A DNA stretch of 62,909 nt from a virus, in IMG/VR virus record IMGVR_UViG_3300025645_000072, positions 1 to 62,909 of that record; one strand, given 5' to 3'. Shown here one piece after another: positions 2,989 through 62,909 of this stretch. Below the pieces are notes generated by a model, which ran no database searches, had not been told where the DNA came from, and saw only the letters and a list, made by a program, of their open reading frames with translations. Within the stretch, counting starts at the first letter, position 1. Each line of letters starts with the position of its first letter. A program made the translations under genes and the position numbers.

Positions 2989-3213
2989 ATGGACATAAGG
3001 AAAATTTCTATAGGGGCAGACTATAAGTCTAGTGCTATGCATTATATAGCTGGACAGGAAGTTCTTGGAGGAAATTATAAAATCCATTTAATACAAAAAG
3101 ATGTTAACTTAGATTCTTATAAAATCTGGATTGAAAAATCTAATGAGATTTTATTATGGAAAGAATTTAATTCTAATATTCCAATTTCAATCGAATATAA
3201 TATAAATTTCTAA
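2989..3213 (+). CDS. Hypothetical phage protein
   Basis: A 74-aa protein (MDIRKISIGADYKSSAMHY, YKIHLIQKD, ILLWKEFN, PISIEYNINF). The regular hydrophobic alternation suggests a small beta domain. The stop TAA overlaps the next ATG, so it is probably translated together with the GroES-like gene. No function recognised. Confidence 0.5.
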   Translation: MDIRKISIGADYKSSAMHYIAGQEVLGGNYKIHLIQKDVNLDSYKIWIEKSNEILLWKEFNSNIPISIEYNINF

Positions 3214-3776
3214 TGAAGTCACCTTTTTATTTCATTGTAGAACCACACAATGGAAGAAGGTATGATAATATTAAAAAGATAGGGGATATGAACTTAATAA
3301 TGAGTTCGTCCAAAGAAGATCATACCGTTTCCAATAGGTTTGCAAAAGTTATTAGTACCCCCATAAACTACAAGGGAGAAATTATTCCAGGAGATATTTT
3401 ACTGGTTCATCATAATGTTTTTAAATTTTATAATGATATAAAAGGTCGTCAAAAAAGCGGTAAAAGTTTTTTTAAAGACAATTTATTTTTTATAGAAGAA
3501 GATCAATTTTTTATGTTCAAACATAAAAATAAATGGAAATGTCATTCTAAATATGTAATGATTAAACCAATATTAAAAAAAGATTCTTATATTAAAGGTT
3601 CTAATACAGAAGAACCACTAACTGGTATTATAAAATATATAAATTCTGAACTATTAGAAAAAGGATTAAAAGAAGGTGACACTGTATGTTTTGAGCCTGA
3701 AAGCGAATATCCTTTTATTGTAGAAGAAGAAAAATTATACAGAATGTTTACCAACAATATAGTGATGGTTTTATAG
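3213..3776 (+). CDS. Tandem GroES-like (co-chaperonin fold) protein, predicted
   Basis: A 187-aa protein whose two halves each follow the GroES barrel pattern. First half: FYFIVEP, then RFAKVISTP, IIPGDILLVHHNVFKF and FFIEEDQFFMF. Second half: YVMIKPI, then TGIIKYI, LKEGDTVCFEP and LYRMFTNNIVMVL. This matches the GroES order of a first strand ending in K/EP, G+V, (x)GD.V.F, then a final I..V strand. It differs from the single-barrel GroES at 48835, which sits beside groEL. Its position just before the terminase genes suggests a virion-assembly role. The fold is inferred from sequence pattern; co-chaperonin activity is not shown. Confidence 0.5.
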   Translation: MKSPFYFIVEPHNGRRYDNIKKIGDMNLIMSSSKEDHTVSNRFAKVISTPINYKGEIIPGDILLVHHNVFKFYNDIKGRQKSGKSFFKDNLFFIEEDQFFMFKHKNKWKCHSKYVMIKPILKKDSYIKGSNTEEPLTGIIKYINSELLEKGLKEGDTVCFEPESEYPFIVEEEKLYRMFTNNIVMVL

Positions 3777-42651: not shown

Positions 42652-42849
42652 TTATTCGTTACACATTTTTTTGTATGCTTCGTGTTGCTCTATAAAATTT
42701 TCTTTATAATTTATATAGAACATTGATTTTGTTAGTTCCTCAATCCACATATCCTGTGACATTTCACAGTTTCCTAAATCTACCTCGTAATAGTGGACAA
42801 GCCTTTGTTTTAAATCATCAAATGATTCTTGTTTTAATTTTATTCCCAT
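42652..42849 (-). CDS. Small hypothetical protein
   Basis: A 65-aa helical protein (ESFDDLKQRLVHYYEVDLGN, EELTKSMFYINYKENFIEQH). It overlaps its upstream neighbour by 10 bases. Confidence 0.45.
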   Translation of the reverse strand: MGIKLKQESFDDLKQRLVHYYEVDLGNCEMSQDMWIEELTKSMFYINYKENFIEQHEAYKKMCNE

Positions 42850-43286
42850 TGTGTTGATTTTTCATCTCCTATTGGAAGTAGTTTGTCGCCTATTAATTTA
42901 TAGTTCATAAAATCATCTTCATACCATTCCGTGTAATATAAATATCCCGTTTGATAAGCTATTAAAAGCAAGTCTTCATCTGTTTCGGTATTTGATTTTG
43001 CTCTTTTTAATGCCTCTATAAATTCATTATATTCTGATTTATCTTGTAGTTCCGTATCTTCATCAATATCATAAAGTATATTTTCTCTGTCTTTTCTACA
43101 TTCTTTTAAAGTTATTTCTAAAGTTGATGTATAAAAAGCTCCATCATACCAACACCACCCATCATTCATTCCATCTCCAGACACATTGCACTTGTGAGCA
43201 AAATATTCTGTTTCTGTTGATGGTATATTTATTACTCTGTCTCCTAATGATTCTTTCATCATTTCGTTAAATTCTTGTAGTTTCAT
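42840..43286 (-). CDS. Acidic hypothetical protein
   Basis: A 148-aa acidic protein (NDGWCWYDGAFYTSTLEITL, LLLIAYQTGYLYYTEWYEDD). Aromatic-rich mixed fold. Four-base ATGA overlap with the small gene before it. Function unknown. Confidence 0.5.
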   Translation of the reverse strand: MKLQEFNEMMKESLGDRVINIPSTETEYFAHKCNVSGDGMNDGWCWYDGAFYTSTLEITLKECRKDRENILYDIDEDTELQDKSEYNEFIEALKRAKSNTETDEDLLLIAYQTGYLYYTEWYEDDFMNYKLIGDKLLPIGDEKSTQWE

Positions 43287-43441
43287 TTTATTAAATTTTG
43301 AATTGTTGATATATCTATTGTTCCGTACTGCCTGTGTACTTTGTTTAAATGTTTTCTTGCTTTGTAAAAATCCCTCTCATTCTGTGGGTTTTTATAAGTG
43401 TAAATCATTCGCCTTAAAAATGTGATTTCGTTTACTGCCAT
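43283..43441 (-). CDS. Small basic hypothetical protein
   Basis: A 52-aa basic protein (MAVNEITFLRRMIYTYKNPQ, FYKARKHLNKVHRQYG) ending in an ATGA overlap with the following gene. The only clearly basic product among acidic neighbours. Confidence 0.4.
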   Translation of the reverse strand: MAVNEITFLRRMIYTYKNPQNERDFYKARKHLNKVHRQYGTIDISTIQNLIK

Positions 43442-43504
43442 AGTTTTTAATTTGCTACAATATAAGTTGTTTTTAATTAGTGTGCAAGTTATTTGTTGTT
43501 TATT

Positions 43505-43795
43505 TTATTTGAATTCAATAAACCTGTTGTCCATTTCTTCATATTTATCAATCAAATTTTCCATCTCCTCTTCTGTCATATGATTGTATGGTTTTGTATA
43601 TGGGTGGTGTGGAGCAATATAAGTTCCACCACCATTTCCATCGTTCCAAATCTCAACATTTTTTTTGTTGGTTTTACACTGGTAGCCCGTGCCTCTGCGT
43701 GTTTCGTAATATCTTACTGAGATAACTTTTAATTTTAAAAAATCATCTTGCGAGTTGTTCCATTCGTGGTATTCTTTGCCGTGTGTTGTTCTCAT
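43505..43795 (-). CDS. Hypothetical protein
   Basis: A 96-aa protein (DFLKLKVISVRYYETRRGTG, DGNGGGTYIAPHHPYTKPYN) with a His-rich middle and helical acidic end. It overlaps its upstream neighbour by four bases. Confidence 0.5.
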   Translation of the reverse strand: MRTTHGKEYHEWNNSQDDFLKLKVISVRYYETRRGTGYQCKTNKKNVEIWNDGNGGGTYIAPHHPYTKPYNHMTEEEMENLIDKYEEMDNRFIEFK

Positions 43796-44070
43796 AATTT
43801 ATTTTTTAGTATTTCTCCTTGTTTTATTACAGGATTATTTTTGCTTCCGTTTTTAACTATTAAATTATATTTTTTCTCTGCTTCTTCTATTGTTTTAAAT
43901 AATCCATTAGAACAAAACGGATTTGTTGTTGTTTCATAAACTGCATAACTGTCTCCGTTTGCGTATGGTTTTATTAATCTTATAAGATTTACAAATGTTT
44001 CATCTTTAAAATTTGTATATTTTATTAACGGACTATTAAAAACTCTTTTAGGTAATTGTAAGTAACTCAT
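43792..44070 (-). CDS. Hypothetical protein
   Basis: A 92-aa basic protein (DETFVNLIRLIKPYANGDSY, NGLFKTIEEAEKKYNLIVKN). Two bases separate the upstream stop from its ATG in the shared TATATAATTATG junction. Confidence 0.5.
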   Translation of the reverse strand: MSYLQLPKRVFNSPLIKYTNFKDETFVNLIRLIKPYANGDSYAVYETTTNPFCSNGLFKTIEEAEKKYNLIVKNGSKNNPVIKQGEILKNKL

Positions 44071-44072
44071 AA

Positions 44073-44306
44073 TTATATAGTTTTATAAAATTGGTTTAAT
44101 CCTGTGTTGGTGTGGATTCCTAATTCTCTGTTAAATCTCTGTGTTTGTTCGTTCATAATATGCGAAGCACTTACATAAAAAGTTGCGTTAGGGTCAAATC
44201 CTAATCCCTGACTTGTATAATAAGTTAACTTTTCGCCTACTATTTCTTTTAACGCTGACTTCATAGCCTTTGTTAATCCTGTTTTATTGTGTTTTGAGTA
44301 TGTCAT
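44073..44306 (-). CDS. Hypothetical protein
   Basis: A 77-aa protein (AMKSALKEIVGEKLTYYTSQ, YVSASHIMNEQTQRFNRELG) ending FYKTI within a repeated gene junction. Unknown function. Confidence 0.5.
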   Translation of the reverse strand: MTYSKHNKTGLTKAMKSALKEIVGEKLTYYTSQGLGFDPNATFYVSASHIMNEQTQRFNRELGIHTNTGLNQFYKTI

Positions 44307-44308
44307 AA

Positions 44309-44542
44309 TTATATAGTTTGATAAATTCCAAAATTTGCGTTTGATGTGTCAATATTTCCCGTAATCATTCCTATTATAAAAAATAGAATTCCCGTAACTG
44401 CCATAAGAAATAACCCCGTTGTCAATACTCTTAAAAATAATGTTAGTATTTTTTCAATGACTAAAATTAACTTTTTCGCCTCTTGTTCTCTTGTCGGGAT
44501 CTTAACTTGTAATTCCTGATAAATTTCTTTTATTTGTTCCAT
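44309..44542 (-). CDS. Small membrane protein
   Basis: A 77-aa protein with an N-terminal amphipathic helix, then a hydrophobic pair of segments (LTLFLRVLTTGLFLMAVTGI, LFFIIGMITG). Ends IYQTI in the repeated junction. One or two transmembrane helices; function unknown. Confidence 0.5.
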   Translation of the reverse strand: MEQIKEIYQELQVKIPTREQEAKKLILVIEKILTLFLRVLTTGLFLMAVTGILFFIIGMITGNIDTSNANFGIYQTI

Positions 44543-44544
44543 AG

Positions 44545-44760
44545 TTATATAATTTTGTAAGTTGGTTGTAAAATTTCTCTGACTTTTTCTCTGTCGTAAG
44601 AGTCAAATTCTATTTCTGTTAATGGTTTTGATTCAATATACTTCATTACTGCATCTTGAATTTCAAAATTATCAGCAATGGGATAAATTCCATTTTTTTT
44701 GTTGTAAAACTCCCAAACATAAATTTGAAAATCTTTTATTTCTTTTAAATAATTTCTCAT
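44545..44760 (-). CDS. Hypothetical protein
   Basis: A 71-aa protein (FQIYVWEFYNKKNGIYPIAD, PLTEIEFDSYDREKVREILQ), probably alpha/beta; ends TYKII in the repeated junction. Function unknown. Confidence 0.5.
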   Translation of the reverse strand: MRNYLKEIKDFQIYVWEFYNKKNGIYPIADNFEIQDAVMKYIESKPLTEIEFDSYDREKVREILQPTYKII

Positions 44761-44764
44761 AGTT

Positions 44765-44887
44765 TTAAAGATTAAATTTGATTAATAATTTTTTAAATAT
44801 CGAAAGTTTTTTATATTCTTTCGCCGTGTAAACTTTTACGTTTCCCTTTCTAATATGGGTATAAATACCCGTTTTTAATTTTGTCAT
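44765..44887 (-). CDS. Small basic protein
   Basis: A 40-aa Lys-rich peptide (MTKLKTGIYTHIRKGNVKVY, TAKEYKKLSIFKKLLIKFNL) filling an otherwise empty gap. Its ATG has the same TATAATTATG context as its neighbours, which supports it. Confidence 0.45.
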   Translation of the reverse strand: MTKLKTGIYTHIRKGNVKVYTAKEYKKLSIFKKLLIKFNL

Positions 44888-44902
44888 AATTATATTTATT
44901 AG

Positions 44903-45139
44903 TTAATAAAAATCTCCCTCTTTAATTCTTTGTGCTTTGTCTTGTGCCTCAAATAATAAATCTGTTAATTCATCAAGTGCCTCAGTTTTGGAAATATAAT
45001 CACTCCCTTTGTCGCTATCTTCCCAAGCTTCAGATTTATCTCTCTGGTTGTCTGCTTGTTCTTCTCTGTTGTAAATTTCTTCTTTTATATCCTCAATATG
45101 ATTTTCTAGCTGAGATATAATTTTACTTAATTTTGCCAT
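44903..45139 (-). CDS. Coiled-coil hypothetical protein
   Basis: A 78-aa acidic protein, probably a coiled coil over most of its length (KIISQLENHIEDIKEEIYNR, EALDELTDLLFEAQDKAQRI). Function unknown. Confidence 0.5.
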   Translation of the reverse strand: MAKLSKIISQLENHIEDIKEEIYNREEQADNQRDKSEAWEDSDKGSDYISKTEALDELTDLLFEAQDKAQRIKEGDFY

Positions 45140-45141
45140 AA

Positions 45142-45609
45142 TTATTTTATATAAAGTTTATATATTATTTCGTTATTTGTTTCTCTGATGAAATCTAATT
45201 TAAAGCCGATTTTAGCTAAAATTTGAGTCATACAACTAAAACCACAGGCACCATCTACATAAGTTTTCGTGTTCTCTGTTGCTCTTTTTAAGTATCTTCT
45301 GCTTTGACTTTTTGCTTTTGGGTTGTAGTGTGTCAAGCCATAAAAACCCTGTCTAATATGGAAAGCTTTCCCACCATTATCGGCAGTTAGTTTTGTTAAT
45401 TCATTATTAAAATAAGTGTTAATAAATGCACCTAGAACAGACCCTTTTTTGTCATATCCTCCACCACCTGCAACAAATTCGGTTTTATTGTTTCGCTTGT
45501 CATAGATGCGACAAACTCCAGACCTTGACCATTTAAAAGTTAACGTTTCAAATTTCCAATTCTCATTTAAAAAATCTTGCTTTTGCTTTTTGTTTAAAAT
45601 TGTTCTCAT
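45142..45609 (-). CDS. Hypothetical protein, glycine-rich motif
   Basis: A 155-aa basic protein. ETLTFKWSRSGVCRIYDKRN, FVAGGGGYDKKGSVLGAFIN and GACGFSCMTQILAKIGF are the distinctive parts. The GGGGYDKKGSVLG motif recurs in small proteins of unrelated phages and plasmids; no role is known. It is the largest gene at the front of the early train. Confidence 0.5.
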   Translation of the reverse strand: MRTILNKKQKQDFLNENWKFETLTFKWSRSGVCRIYDKRNNKTEFVAGGGGYDKKGSVLGAFINTYFNNELTKLTADNGGKAFHIRQGFYGLTHYNPKAKSQSRRYLKRATENTKTYVDGACGFSCMTQILAKIGFKLDFIRETNNEIIYKLYIK

Positions 45610-46923: not shown

Positions 46924-46931
46924 TACTTTTG
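46924..46931 (+). promoter_or_regulatory. groEL promoter
   Basis: TACTTTTG is a full TAnnTTTG match 29 bases before the groEL ATG. It should drive groEL, the two small genes and groES. Confidence 0.65.
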
Positions 46932-46960: not shown

Positions 46961-48544
46961 ATGAGTTACAGTCCAAAGGATCTTGTGTTTGACCAAGAGG
47001 GTCGAGATAAATTAAAAAAAGGAATTAATGCAATTACTAATGCTGTTAAAAGTACTTTAGGTCCATTAGGTAAAACTGTTTTAATTGAGTCTCCAGAACA
47101 CACTCACGGAATAACCGTTACCAAAGACGGTGTGACTGTAGCTAAATCTATTTTCTTAGAAGACGCTGTAGAAAACTTAGCTGTAAAAATGATGAAAGAA
47201 GCAGCTGATCGTACGGCTAGTTCTGCTGGGGATGGAACAACAACTGCAATTGTACTTACTGAGGCTATTATTCGAAACGGAATGAAAGCAATAGAGGAAG
47301 GCGAAAACATAAACACTACTGAACTTATACGAGATATTAATGAAACTGTTAAGGGCATTATAAAAAACTTAAACAAAGTTTCTAAAAAAGTTAGTTCAAA
47401 AACACTTCGTGATGTTGCTACGGTATCGGCTAATAATTCAGCTGAACTAGGTAGGTTAATTTCTAATGCTTACAAAGAGCTTGGTAAAGATGGTGTATTG
47501 ACAGTAGAAAATTCACAGACTGAAGAAACTTACTATGATATTACTAAAGGTATAAAAATAGAAAGAGGATATACCACACAGCTTTTCGCTAACAACGAAA
47601 GAAATGATGAGTGTGTTTTAGATAATGTTCATATTCTTGTTACTGACACAGAGATTCAGAGCTTGATGGAGATTGAGAATATACTAAGACCGATTATTAA
47701 AGAAAAGAAAAAACTTTTGATTATAGGAAACTGTACTCAAAACGTAGTTAATACACTAGGCGCAAACAAAGTTCAGAATAATTTATCTATATGTAATATT
47801 ATACCACCATCGTTTGGATATAAGACAAATGAGTTATTAGGTGATATTTCGTTATCGATAGGTGCAAAGTATTTTAGTGAGTCTCAAGGTGATGACTTGA
47901 GTTTGCTTACAATGGATAGTTTAGGGTTTGCTGAGAAAATTATTGTTGGGAAAGATAGTACTGTTATAGTTACGGCTAGTGAAAAACAAAATGAAGAGAT
48001 AGGCGAAAGAATTAATCAACTCAAAGATCAGCACAAAAAAACTTCTTTAAACAAGTATGAGAAAGATTTTATATTAGAACGTATAGCGAACTTGACTGGA
48101 TCTGTTGGCGTTATTTATGTAGGAGCAAACTCAGACATTGAGCAAAAAGAAAAATTTGACCGCATCGATGATGCGGTGTGTGCTGTTCGTTCGGCATTGG
48201 AAGAAGGGATATTACCAGGAGGAGGATTAGCTTTATTAAGAGAAGCAGAAAATTTAGGTGATGGAATATCAAATGATATACTATATAATTCTTTAACTGC
48301 TCCATTAGAACAAATACTTACTAATGCAGGTGATGATGTAAAAAAAGTACGTGATACAATATGCTCGTGTGCATCAGCTCCAGTAAATTATGGGTTTAAT
48401 GTTAAAACCAAAGAGTATGGAGATATGTATAAAATGGGAATTATTGATCCAACTAAAGTAACAAAGAACGCACTTATAAATGCAGCGAGTGTTGCAACAA
48501 CTATACTTAGTACAAACGCAATAGTAACAATGAAACGAGCATAA
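46961..48544 (+). CDS. groEL: Phage chaperonin GroEL
   Basis: A 527-aa group I chaperonin, full length compared with 548 aa in E. coli. ATP site: STLGPLGKTVLI (31-42), KDGVTVA (55-61, D56), DGTTTA (91-96) and the catalytic Asp in RIDDAV (D404, equivalent to E. coli D398), then LEEGILPGGG (413-422) and MGIIDPTKVTKNAL (492-505). The apical domain (about 190-375) is divergent: ERGYTTQLF replaces DRGYLSPYF, and IIPPSFGYK stands in for KAPGFGDRR. The C-terminal GGM tail is missing; the protein ends in TMKRA. All ATPase residues are kept, so it should be active, with altered substrate or partner surface. Confidence 0.95.
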   Translation: MSYSPKDLVFDQEGRDKLKKGINAITNAVKSTLGPLGKTVLIESPEHTHGITVTKDGVTVAKSIFLEDAVENLAVKMMKEAADRTASSAGDGTTTAIVLTEAIIRNGMKAIEEGENINTTELIRDINETVKGIIKNLNKVSKKVSSKTLRDVATVSANNSAELGRLISNAYKELGKDGVLTVENSQTEETYYDITKGIKIERGYTTQLFANNERNDECVLDNVHILVTDTEIQSLMEIENILRPIIKEKKKLLIIGNCTQNVVNTLGANKVQNNLSICNIIPPSFGYKTNELLGDISLSIGAKYFSESQGDDLSLLTMDSLGFAEKIIVGKDSTVIVTASEKQNEEIGERINQLKDQHKKTSLNKYEKDFILERIANLTGSVGVIYVGANSDIEQKEKFDRIDDAVCAVRSALEEGILPGGGLALLREAENLGDGISNDILYNSLTAPLEQILTNAGDDVKKVRDTICSCASAPVNYGFNVKTKEYGDMYKMGIIDPTKVTKNALINAASVATTILSTNAIVTMKRA

Positions 48545-48561
48545 ATTTAAAATTATATATT

Positions 48562-48696
48562 ATGGGCCATAGACCACACGCATTTGAAAATCAAATTTTT
48601 GAATCTTTTAGAATAGAGGAGAAAAAAGTTAAATCTGCTATTAGTCTTTTGAAACAACACGGATATGTTGTTTATAAGAAAGATTCGCAAGAGTGA
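48562..48696 (+). CDS. Small protein between groEL and groES
   Basis: A 44-aa protein (FRIEEKKVKSAISLLKQHGY, VVYKKDSQE). The VKSAISLLKQHGYVV part resembles its downstream neighbour, so the two are probably a tandem duplication. Its stop overlaps a GTG start. Confidence 0.5.
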   Translation: MGHRPHAFENQIFESFRIEEKKVKSAISLLKQHGYVVYKKDSQE

Positions 48697-48866
48697 ATTT
48701 TTTTAAAACTTATACTATTCCAGAAAGAGTTAAAGAACAGTTAGAAGCAATAAATCTTTTGATTGCACAAGGATATACTGTTTTAGATTTAGAAGGCGAA
48801 ATAATAGATAAAAATATTTTAAAAGATAAATTAAATGAAAGCAATAGGGAAAACCATAGTAATTGA
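48693..48866 (+). CDS. Small protein overlapping groES
   Basis: A 57-aa protein with a GTG start overlapping the upstream stop (GTGA). ERVKEQLEAINLLIAQGYTV is its core, paralogous to the preceding gene. It ends 32 bases inside groES. The overlap on both sides suggests strong coupling to the chaperonin operon. Function unknown. Confidence 0.5.
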   Translation: MNFFKTYTIPERVKEQLEAINLLIAQGYTVLDLEGEIIDKNILKDKLNESNRENHSN

Positions 48867-49092
48867 AACCATAAAAGAAAAAGAAACTACTGAGTCAGGA
48901 ATATTACTTACTTCATCAGACAGTAATCAGTTTAGATACAAGAAAGGAAAAGTAATTCTTCCAGGACACGAATGCTCTGTTATCAATAAAGGAGATATTA
49001 TTTTTTATGATAAAGCAGCTGGACACACTATGATGTTAAACGAAGAGGTAGTTACAATTATATCTGAAAGAGATATTGTAGTAGTTATTTAA
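48835..49092 (+). CDS. groES: Phage co-chaperonin GroES
   Basis: An 85-aa GroES, slightly shorter than the 97 aa of E. coli. The mobile loop keeps the GroEL contact (TTESGILLTSSD, with GILL for GIVL). KKGKVILPG and INKGDIIFYD are barrel hallmarks, and VVTIISERDIVVVI is the last strand. The roof hairpin after the loop is short. Together with groEL it forms a complete chaperonin. Confidence 0.92.
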   Translation: MKAIGKTIVIETIKEKETTESGILLTSSDSNQFRYKKGKVILPGHECSVINKGDIIFYDKAAGHTMMLNEEVVTIISERDIVVVI

Positions 49093-49113
49093 TATTTTAT
49101 ACATACACTAATT

Positions 49114-49155
49114 AATCTGTAAAGAAAATCGAAAAATCTTTACAGATTTTTTTTT
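49114..49155 (+). terminator. Strong terminator after groES
   Basis: AATCTGTAAAGA and TCTTTACAGATT form a perfect 12-bp stem (49114-49125 and 49137-49148) with an 11-base loop, then a T-run. It also covers the stop of the convergent minus-strand gene. Confidence 0.85.
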
Positions 49156-49607
49156 ATCTCTTGATTCATTTTTTTAATTATTTTTCTATATATCTTGTTG
49201 CTGTATTTAGTATTGTTTTTAAAAATTGGATTTCTGTATGGACTTTCTGATATAGTCTCTTTCATATTTAATTTTTTATATATAGAAGATACCACACGCT
49301 TACCTTTAAAACCTAGCTCATAAAGTTTTGATTCGTTTCCAACCCTTTCGCGCCAGATAATTATCCACTTGTCTTTCAGTAGTTTTTGAAATCTCATTTT
49401 GTCCCAGGACATAATCTCATTGAACTCTTCAAATTGTTTTCTAGTAAACAATCCTTCGCTATATAAAAACAACATCATTTCTATATCAGCTGTTTTTAAA
49501 TTATAATAAGCTCTAGCCCAATGCTTTACAACTTTCCAGTATTTTAGATAGTCGTTAGAAGGCTCTTTACGATCATAATTAGCTCGTAGTTTTTTACTAA
49601 AATTCAT
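49140..49607 (-). CDS. Possible winged-helix DNA-binding protein
   Basis: A 155-aa protein from the ATG at 49607. (A longer frame from 49703 adds 32 residues that overlap the divergent promoter, so I prefer the inner start.) KTADIEMMLFLYSEGLFTRK, then FNEIMSWDKMRFQKLLKDKW, then VGNESKLYELGFKGKRVVSS, fits a helix-turn-helix plus wing. The end is very basic. It is the only minus-strand gene inside the late block, which suits a late regulator. Confidence 0.5.
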   Translation of the reverse strand: MNFSKKLRANYDRKEPSNDYLKYWKVVKHWARAYYNLKTADIEMMLFLYSEGLFTRKQFEEFNEIMSWDKMRFQKLLKDKWIIIWRERVGNESKLYELGFKGKRVVSSIYKKLNMKETISESPYRNPIFKNNTKYSNKIYRKIIKKMNQEIKKNL

Positions 49608-49622
49608 TATATTTAATTTAAT

Positions 49623-49630
49623 TATATTTG
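49623..49630 (+). promoter_or_regulatory. Bacteroidota-type -7 promoter element
   Basis: TATATTTG lies 21 bases before the start at 49652. The surrounding TTATATTTGTAAATATAA is nearly palindromic and lies between two divergent genes, so the nearby winged-helix protein may bind it. Confidence 0.6.
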
Positions 49631-49651
49631 TAAATATAAACAAAACAAATA

Positions 49652-49762
49652 ATGGCACGTAAAAAGAAAATGAAAAACCCTTGTTGGAAAGGTTTTGTTG
49701 CATATGGATTAAAAACTAAAAACGGAAAGAAAGTTCCTAATTGTGTGCGTAAAAAAAAATAA
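49652..49762 (+). CDS. Small basic phage peptide
   Basis: A 36-aa peptide (MARKKKMKNPCWKGFVAYGL, KTKNGKKVPNCVRKKK). The NPCWKGFxAYGxKxKNGKKVPNCV pattern recurs as a short module in aquatic phage proteins; two Cys could bind metal. Function unknown. Confidence 0.6.
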   Translation: MARKKKMKNPCWKGFVAYGLKTKNGKKVPNCVRKKK

Positions 49763-62112: not shown

Positions 62113-62909
62113 ATGGCACAAATAAAAAAAATAAGCACAGAGCTTCAAATATTAGATAAATTTTTAGATACAAGTGGAGATGCGGGTTTGTCAGGACAAG
62201 TTTTAAGTTCGACAGGCACTGGTGTAAATTGGTTTTCAGGTTTTAGTTCAGTATATTCTGTAGGAGCAGTAGGAAGTGGTGCTGCTTGGAGAAATATGGG
62301 GACGTTTACGGCAGCTCAAGGCGGTCAAAGTATTTTTATAAAAATTGTATCTAACAATGGCTATAACGCAAGTATAAGTCAAAACTATGAGGTATATCTA
62401 AGATTTAAAACATCTAATGGTGGTAGTACTGATGCAAATGGTTTTGCTGCTGATAGTAGTTTTTATACTACTGGTCCAAGTGGTTCTTTAGGTGGTGGTA
62501 ACATAAAATGGGTAGGAAATGCAGCAGGCACTTCTGCAACAGCTTATACTTTATATGTACTTTTTCCTCAATTTACTGGAAATGGTAGTTTTTATGTTGT
62601 TGAAAATTCAGCTGGTACTTGGACTAACAGCGGAGCAACAGCTACAGATCCTGGGGCTGCCAGTTCTACTGTATTAATACCACCAGAACAATTTAGAGTT
62701 GGATCAACTGATTTTGTTGTAAATGGCGGCGGAGGTGATGCTTACTTTGCAAATAGTAAAGTGGGTATTGGAAATAGCGCTCCTCAATCAAAACTACATA
62801 TAGAAACAGGTAGTGGAGGTACTTACATTCCAAACTCAAATCACGATGATGTGACTATTGAAGGTAGTGGAAATATTGGGTTACAATTATTTAGCCCTAA
62901 TACTACTTA
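62113..62909 (+). CDS. Tail fibre/adhesin with S74 chaperone (5' part)
   Basis: First part of the gene that continues at position 2. MAQIKKISTELQILDKFLDT, then GDAGLSGQVLSSTGTGVNWF is a familiar phage fibre head. A beta domain follows (SVYSVGAVGSGAAWRNMGTF, FTGNGSFYVVENSAGTW), then FRVGSTDFVVN and the first shaft repeat KVGIGNSAPQSKLHI, which lies in the duplicated end sequence. Read through the junction it encodes 516 aa with a C-terminal S74 domain. Confidence 0.85.
   Translation, partial: MAQIKKISTELQILDKFLDTSGDAGLSGQVLSSTGTGVNWFSGFSSVYSVGAVGSGAAWRNMGTFTAAQGGQSIFIKIVSNNGYNASISQNYEVYLRFKTSNGGSTDANGFAADSSFYTTGPSGSLGGGNIKWVGNAAGTSATAYTLYVLFPQFTGNGSFYVVENSAGTWTNSGATATDPGAASSTVLIPPEQFRVGSTDFVVNGGGGDAYFANSKVGIGNSAPQSKLHIETGSGGTYIPNSNHDDVTIEGSGNIGLQLFSPNTT
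62754..62909 (+). repeat. Contig-end overlap, right copy
   Basis: Second copy of the 156-base end sequence, inside the last fibre gene. Reading frame is continuous across the junction, giving a unit length of 62,753. Confidence 0.95.

Follow-up and report, generated by a model that had tools for sequence, protein, structure and literature searches.

A GroEL-GroES pair with a rewritten binding interface conserved in a clade of Bacteroidota phages

This study analyzed the 62,909-nucleotide stretch of IMG/VR virus record IMGVR_UViG_3300025645_000072 (hereafter the window), which is the complete genome of a virus of Bacteroidota bacteria. The window carries a groEL-groES pair that is inherited from the ancestor of a clade of ~60-kb Bacteroidota phages, and in this clade several of the residues with which GroEL binds its clients and its lid have been exchanged for fixed others. 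We consider it likely that the two genes specify a complete group I chaperonin of the phage's own, vertically kept, with its own folding chamber and lid, and probably orthogonal to the GroE machine of the host. The kind of system is already known; the conserved rewriting of the interface and a second GroES-like protein encoded elsewhere in the genome merit the attention of specialists.

Host GroE was itself discovered through phage assembly, and the clade bears on the question of why an entire chaperonin is encoded by certain phages. It offers many natural, constrained GroEL variants in which the groove for clients and lid and the ring-ring contacts are rewritten and the lid is encoded next door, and isolated relatives can be grown on hosts of the genera Flavobacterium, Cellulophaga, and Maribacter. 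These variants make it possible to test how a GroEL groove acquires a new specificity without losing its function, and whether GroEL-GroES cycles run on single rings in nature.

The operon and its genome

The record encodes a terminase, a portal, several virion proteins, a tail, an amidase, and a holin, together with a primase/helicase, an exonuclease VIII, and a Sak-like annealing protein. Its ends form a direct terminal repeat of 156 bp with one mismatch (1-156 and 62754-62909), and an independent contig (G005) spans the joint of this repeat at 99.97-100% identity. From these findings we conclude that the record holds the whole genome, in circularly permuted or circularised form (the record was handled as linear). 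The occurrence of both chaperonin genes beside terminase, portal, tail, and lysis genes, in a genome with a terminal repeat, places them in a bona fide phage. Contigs of near-identical strains end at or near ~42402 (G003 and G005; G001 at 42709); a short repeat at this position probably breaks assemblies, and the groEL region is consequently under-represented among the closest contigs.

The operon lies on the plus strand. It opens with a Bacteroidota-type promoter element, TAnnTTTG, present as TACTTTTG at 46924-46931 (+), 30 nt upstream of the groEL ATG. An earlier note on the sequence had proposed this element, and 65 of the 73 distinct upstream regions of the clade contain it no more than 160 nt before groEL, whereas 500 shuffles yielded a mean count of 7.6 and a maximum of 16. 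A scan for sigma-70-type promoters was uninformative (14 sites vs 13.8 expected). The groEL gene (46961-48544, +; 527 aa) was assigned to the group I chaperonins on the basis of its ORF, Pfam and PHROGs matches, alignment, and predicted structure, and groES (48835-49092, +; 85 aa) on the basis of its ORF, Pfam match, and predicted fold. The description of the two as one operon was correct, but the genes are not adjacent, because two small overlapping ORFs lie between them. Their order, groEL before groES, is the reverse of that in 78 of the 79 cellular loci containing both genes.

ORF A (48562-48696, +; 44 aa) has relatives in some loci: related ORFs occupy the same place in L034, L036, and L044 and lie downstream of groEL in L167, and ORF A is missing from L005, a locus 91% identical to the window. 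ORF B (48693-48866, +; 57 aa, GTG start) overlaps the stop of ORF A and the start of groES, and no relatives of it were found in the clade loci. Compared with L005, in which groES directly follows groEL, the two ORFs constitute a 289-bp insertion. The groEL/groES junction (48545-48834 in the window) is a hot spot for such events, with an insert in 67 of the 83 clade loci; the inserts hold differing small ORFs and reach ~3.3 kb in L054 and L062.

An intrinsic terminator consisting of a hairpin and a U tail (49114-49148, +; 12-bp stem, -12.2 kcal/mol, z = -4.5) closes the operon, in agreement with the earlier claim of a strong terminator; a simple terminator scanner missed the hairpin because its loop comprises 11 nt. 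The terminator overlaps the region of a convergent gene (49140-49703). Close to it, at 49062-49163, the groES 3' end and the spacer have been replaced relative to L005 (~102 bp here, ~35 bp there). At the protein level, the two loci agree in GroES residues 1-70, and a recombination joint inside groES is therefore likely at this place. The contig of L005 (G023), whose GroEL region (42900-45324) is that 91% identical to the window, carries a portal ~64% identical to that of the window with several internal stops, reflecting either mosaicism or an error-prone assembly.

Both proteins proved to be as previously described, namely, a full-length GroEL with all ATPase motifs and a GroES with a mobile loop. 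GroEL residues 25-525 match Pfam PF00118 (E 5e-51; 174 bits vs a cut-off of 34.3), the protein matches phrog_5725 'chaperonin groEL' (E 9e-132), and its identity to cellular GroELs is 39-43%. Equatorial, intermediate, and apical domains were all found in the AlphaFold model (pLDDT 84), which superimposes on solved GroEL with TM up to 0.87-0.89; the PDB matches listed are all GroEL/Hsp60, indicating a group I and not a group II fold. In the phage protein, D56, D91-GTTT, and D404 occupy the places of the E. coli ATPase residues D52, D87-GTTT, and D398. The wider set of residues for ATP binding and hydrolysis (D52, G86-D87-GTTT, G414/G416, D398, and D495; E. coli numbering) is complete in the window protein and in each of the 88 clade members. 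Judged by these residues, catalysis by the phage GroEL is intact. The dN/dS values against the nearest relatives (0.04-0.10) reveal purifying selection. At G415, the second glycine of the GGG motif in the nucleotide pocket, which is invariant in the cellular set, 32 of the 88 clade GroELs have A; the window keeps G. In GroES, residues 2-85 match Pfam PF00166 (42.1 bits vs a cut-off of 21.1), the profile-profile match to Cpn10 has P 98%, and the predicted beta-barrel fold reaches a TM of up to 0.78 to GroES chains.

Distribution and descent of the pair

A viral scan yielded 122 GroEL relatives, 80 of which (from IMG/VR) were kept; together with the window, GenBank MW202828, and an Elemovirus, they form a set of 83 groEL loci. 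In all 83, groES lies downstream of groEL in the same orientation, and the same portal is present in 32 of 35 GroEL-bearing records tested. The operon seemed to be absent from 16 of 22 portal-related contigs, but this absence was only apparent and was explained by fragmented contigs. The downstream flank was not found in the tested longer contigs that have no GroEL, where the upstream query was matched only by marginal repeats, and the contigs that hold the downstream flank do have GroEL (four short contigs were left out of this flank test).

Hosts of the isolates that share a homologous portal are Flavobacterium, Cellulophaga, Maribacter, and Tenacibaculum. Both GroEL and GroES are present in Elemovirus (portal 45% identical to that of the window), Callevirus phi40:1 (Callevirus portals, 34-36%), and Panino. 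The Pachyviridae phi19:3 and phi18:3 have Cpn10 genes and no GroEL, and the phage Gundel_1 has neither. Since Pachyviridae relatives with a distantly related portal (28-29%) do without it, a phage GroEL is not needed by the whole wider lineage. In previous studies, GroEL was described from genomes of marine Bacteroidota phages (PMC5332604), the pair from Maribacter phage Panino (PMC11590407), and both proteins from some phages (PMC7185714). The linkage in the loci, together with the isolates carrying both genes, reveals that the pair is a standard part of this ~60-kb phage lineage. The view that both genes together in a 63-kb phage are uncommon therefore has to be abandoned.

Given these data, there is practically no chance that the genes represent host contamination, a recent acquisition from a host, or a decaying passenger. 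Among the matches listed from a search of 84,980 species genomes, the best cellular one is a Flavobacterium GroEL with 42% identity. In a maximum-likelihood tree, 17/17 clade GroELs were monophyletic (SH-aLRT 100) and fell outside all sampled cellular GroELs. The low identity, the tree, the low dN/dS, and the setting in a virus genome with a terminal repeat rule out contamination and recent transfer. A phylogeny and a search for the operon in related phage genomes had been named earlier among the checks on this point, and both favor the phage. Elemovirus appeared as sister to the clade in the GroEL tree with a support of 88 but on a long branch, and this placement was not relied on. One further record, L187 (CAKLQF020000019.1, 'Acinetobacter phage MD-2021a'), has groES-groEL among chromosomal genes, and its GroEL groups with that of Acinetobacter rudis; it is likely a host chromosome labelled as phage.

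The rewritten interface and a second GroES-like protein

We compared 88 clade GroELs with 81 cellular GroELs residue by residue, using E. coli numbering. In E. coli GroEL, Y199, Y203, F204, L234, L237, L259, V263, and V264 bind substrate and GroES (PMC3268035, PMC7289027). The results revealed that Y203 (Y in 79/81 cellular sequences) is L or M in 88/88 clade members, L234 (L, V, I, or M in 81/81) is E in 87/88, and V263 (V in 81/81) is A or G in 88/88. E238 (E or Q in 80/81) is K or R in all 88 clade sequences; position 238 is not among the E. coli residues reported as binding substrate or GroES. The clade also has V for A258, V or I for L259, and mostly A for V264, and it retains Y199, F204, L237, and N265. 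The groove residues of the window GroEL are L208, E239, R243, V263, G267, and A268, and the changes at 234-264 map to helices 235-247 and 260-273 of the model.

The ratio of apical to equatorial identity was 0.82 between clade and cells, 1.05 between cells, and 0.98 within the clade. The low ratio to cells and the even ratio within the clade suggest a single change of the apical domain in the ancestor of the clade, after which the domain was held as it was. The apical divergence suspected earlier is thus real, but it is not a strictly apical change: residues conserved in cells were lost at 26 of 71 apical positions vs 34 of 120 elsewhere (p = 0.26), and an apical-specific loss was rejected as not significant. 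Because conserved positions were lost across the whole protein, some of what changed may reflect general divergence.

The contacts between rings and the C-terminus have changed as well. Of the cellular GroELs, 78/81 have R452, whereas the clade as a whole has exchanged this residue (E in the window; R in at most 5% after dereplication). S463 and V464 are both K in the window, with mostly D or E at 464 in the clade, and E461 is D in the window. The E. coli single-ring mutant SR1 carries R452E/E461A/S463A/V464A (PMC12696368, PMC5575113). The GGM tail, which had been described as lost, is indeed absent from 88/88 clade GroELs and is present in 71/81 cellular ones.

The GroES of the operon is altered on the side facing this groove and in its roof, and the earlier suggestion of an unusual lid was correct in substance. 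Its mobile loop reads SG-ILL-TSSD (SGILLTSSD) in the window, and a hydrophobic tripeptide ending in L is found in 82/82 clade members. The mobile-loop Pro, present in 78/79 cellular sequences, is S or T in 82/82, and the roof segment measures 10 residues in 82/82 vs 14-20 in cells. The dome Tyr position, Y or W in cells, is mostly small or polar in the clade.

A second GroES-like gene (3213-3776, +; 187 aa), which the earlier account had missed, lies two genes upstream of the terminase gene. Its product matches phrog_13932 'co-chaperonin GroES' (E 1e-22), and its family profile matches solved GroES chains (E 5e-5). The C-terminal domain (~114-187) is Cpn10-like (P 97%, E 9e-11; shuffled controls ≤0.2%). 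A tandem of two Cpn10 domains as in chloroplast Cpn20 was considered, and the match of the N-terminal domain to Cpn10 exceeded that of the shuffled controls (P 11% vs ≤1.2%) but stayed well short of significance. The canonical mobile loop was not found in the Cpn10-like domain, suggesting that the protein may not act as an ordinary lid. A member of the family lies near the terminase in 28 of the 35 GroEL-bearing records, and isolates of Elemovirus, Callevirus, and Panino have one there as well; relatives are present in 77 GenBank phages, where those of Elemovirus and others bear the annotation cpn10 or GroES. In phi19:3, which has no GroEL, a cpn10-annotated gene stands at the equivalent place, next to the terminase.

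Proposed function of the phage chaperonin and comparison with known systems

A host-type RNA polymerase recognizing TAnnTTTG would transcribe the operon during infection. The phage GroEL would then form rings of seven subunits, driven by ATP and closed by the GroES of the phage, and the chamber would fold phage proteins, most plausibly virion proteins, independently of host GroE. The groove, the mobile loop, and the lid roof have been rebuilt together and are fixed in the clade, which argues that the pair is probably orthogonal, with a GroEL that would prefer the phage GroES and serve a smaller range of clients. As far as the sequences indicate, the phage chaperonin thus probably works separately from the host version. 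The mobile-loop tripeptide is still canonical (I/L-L-L), and some binding to or from host partners is accordingly possible.

The same tripeptide, in a pair that is full-length and apparently catalytically intact, would also suit a simpler role in which the phage proteins add general folding capacity, interchangeable with that of the host, for massive virion protein synthesis. We consider this role unlikely: a general copy would be expected to keep the groove residues that are nearly invariant in cells, whereas these were swapped for fixed others throughout the clade, with matched changes in GroES. A better prospect, although still short of an even chance, is that the machine works as a single ring or as loosely paired rings, and that large virion proteins would thereby be less constrained by the size of the chamber. 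This possibility is compatible with the preferred explanation of an orthogonal chaperonin. Replacement of the SR1 positions R452, S463, and V464 points in this direction, as do the very large proteins of the phage (2396, 1607, and 1235 aa), and precedent exists in the single ring reported for the chaperonin of phage OBP and in the intermediate of that of phage EL (PMC7185714, PMC5934643). However, the charged replacements could make another ring-ring contact, the E461-to-D change in the window is conservative, and single-ring E. coli GroEL traps GroES (PMC5575113), which means that other changes would be needed.

It is also conceivable, although improbable, that the true lid is or includes the 187-aa protein, produced together with the head and packaging genes; two lids would then serve different roles. 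The conservation of this family near the terminase and its clearly Cpn10-like C-terminal domain are consistent with such a role; that domain is nevertheless without a canonical mobile loop, and the phi19:3 gene indicates that the protein need not work with a phage GroEL. A combined scheme seems similarly doubtful, namely, an orthogonal and possibly single-ring chaperonin with two dedicated lids, the roof-clipped GroES serving the folding cycle and the 187-aa protein linking the chamber to the assembly of heads or to packaging.

Among the known systems, the circular podovirus MW202828.1 from Manatee Spring is similar in having groEL then groES in a ~60-kb genome, a portal 68% and a GroEL 53% identical to those of the window, and a GroEL of the same clade, but its groEL and groES have no small ORFs between them and its flanking genes are different. 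The Flavobacterium phages vB_FspP_elemo (Elemovirus) share the ~60-kb size, the gene order, the clipped GroES roof, and the second cpn10-annotated gene adjoining the terminase, whereas their GroEL is 39.5% identical, keeps L234 and E238, and forms a long separate branch. Maribacter phage Panino, an isolated podovirus with a portal of 50% identity, shares L234E and V263A; in contrast, its genome measures 77 kb, and its GroEL has retained R231 and L259 and carries G at 238, which means that several clade changes are missing from it. Callevirus (Cellulophaga phi40:1, phi38:1, and Calle) and marine 'group 2' genomes (PMC5332604) likewise represent Bacteroidota phages with GroEL, and the homologous portal (34-36%) and, in phi40:1 and Calle_1, GroES extend the likeness. 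However, groES precedes groEL in Callevirus with a gene between them, the GroEL is ~35-36% identical, and the roof of 17 residues is not clipped.

The E. coli GroEL-GroES system has the same fold, ATPase residues, and mobile-loop mechanism, and differs in the groove, the inter-ring contacts, the GGM tail, the roof loop, and the gene order. Phage EL gp146 and OBP gp246 are also GroEL-related phage chaperonins, with ring-ring contacts that are relaxed there and possibly here. They are far more divergent, with EL sharing 22% with GroEL, and no GroES has been recognised in EL (PMC7185714, PMC5934643). In the window clade, a GroES is linked to groEL. The phage-encoded lid T4 gp31 is likewise not known to have the roof hairpin. 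The phage GroES model has a weak fold match to gp31 (PDB 1g31), but gp31 works with the host GroEL, whereas the window phage supplies the GroEL too.
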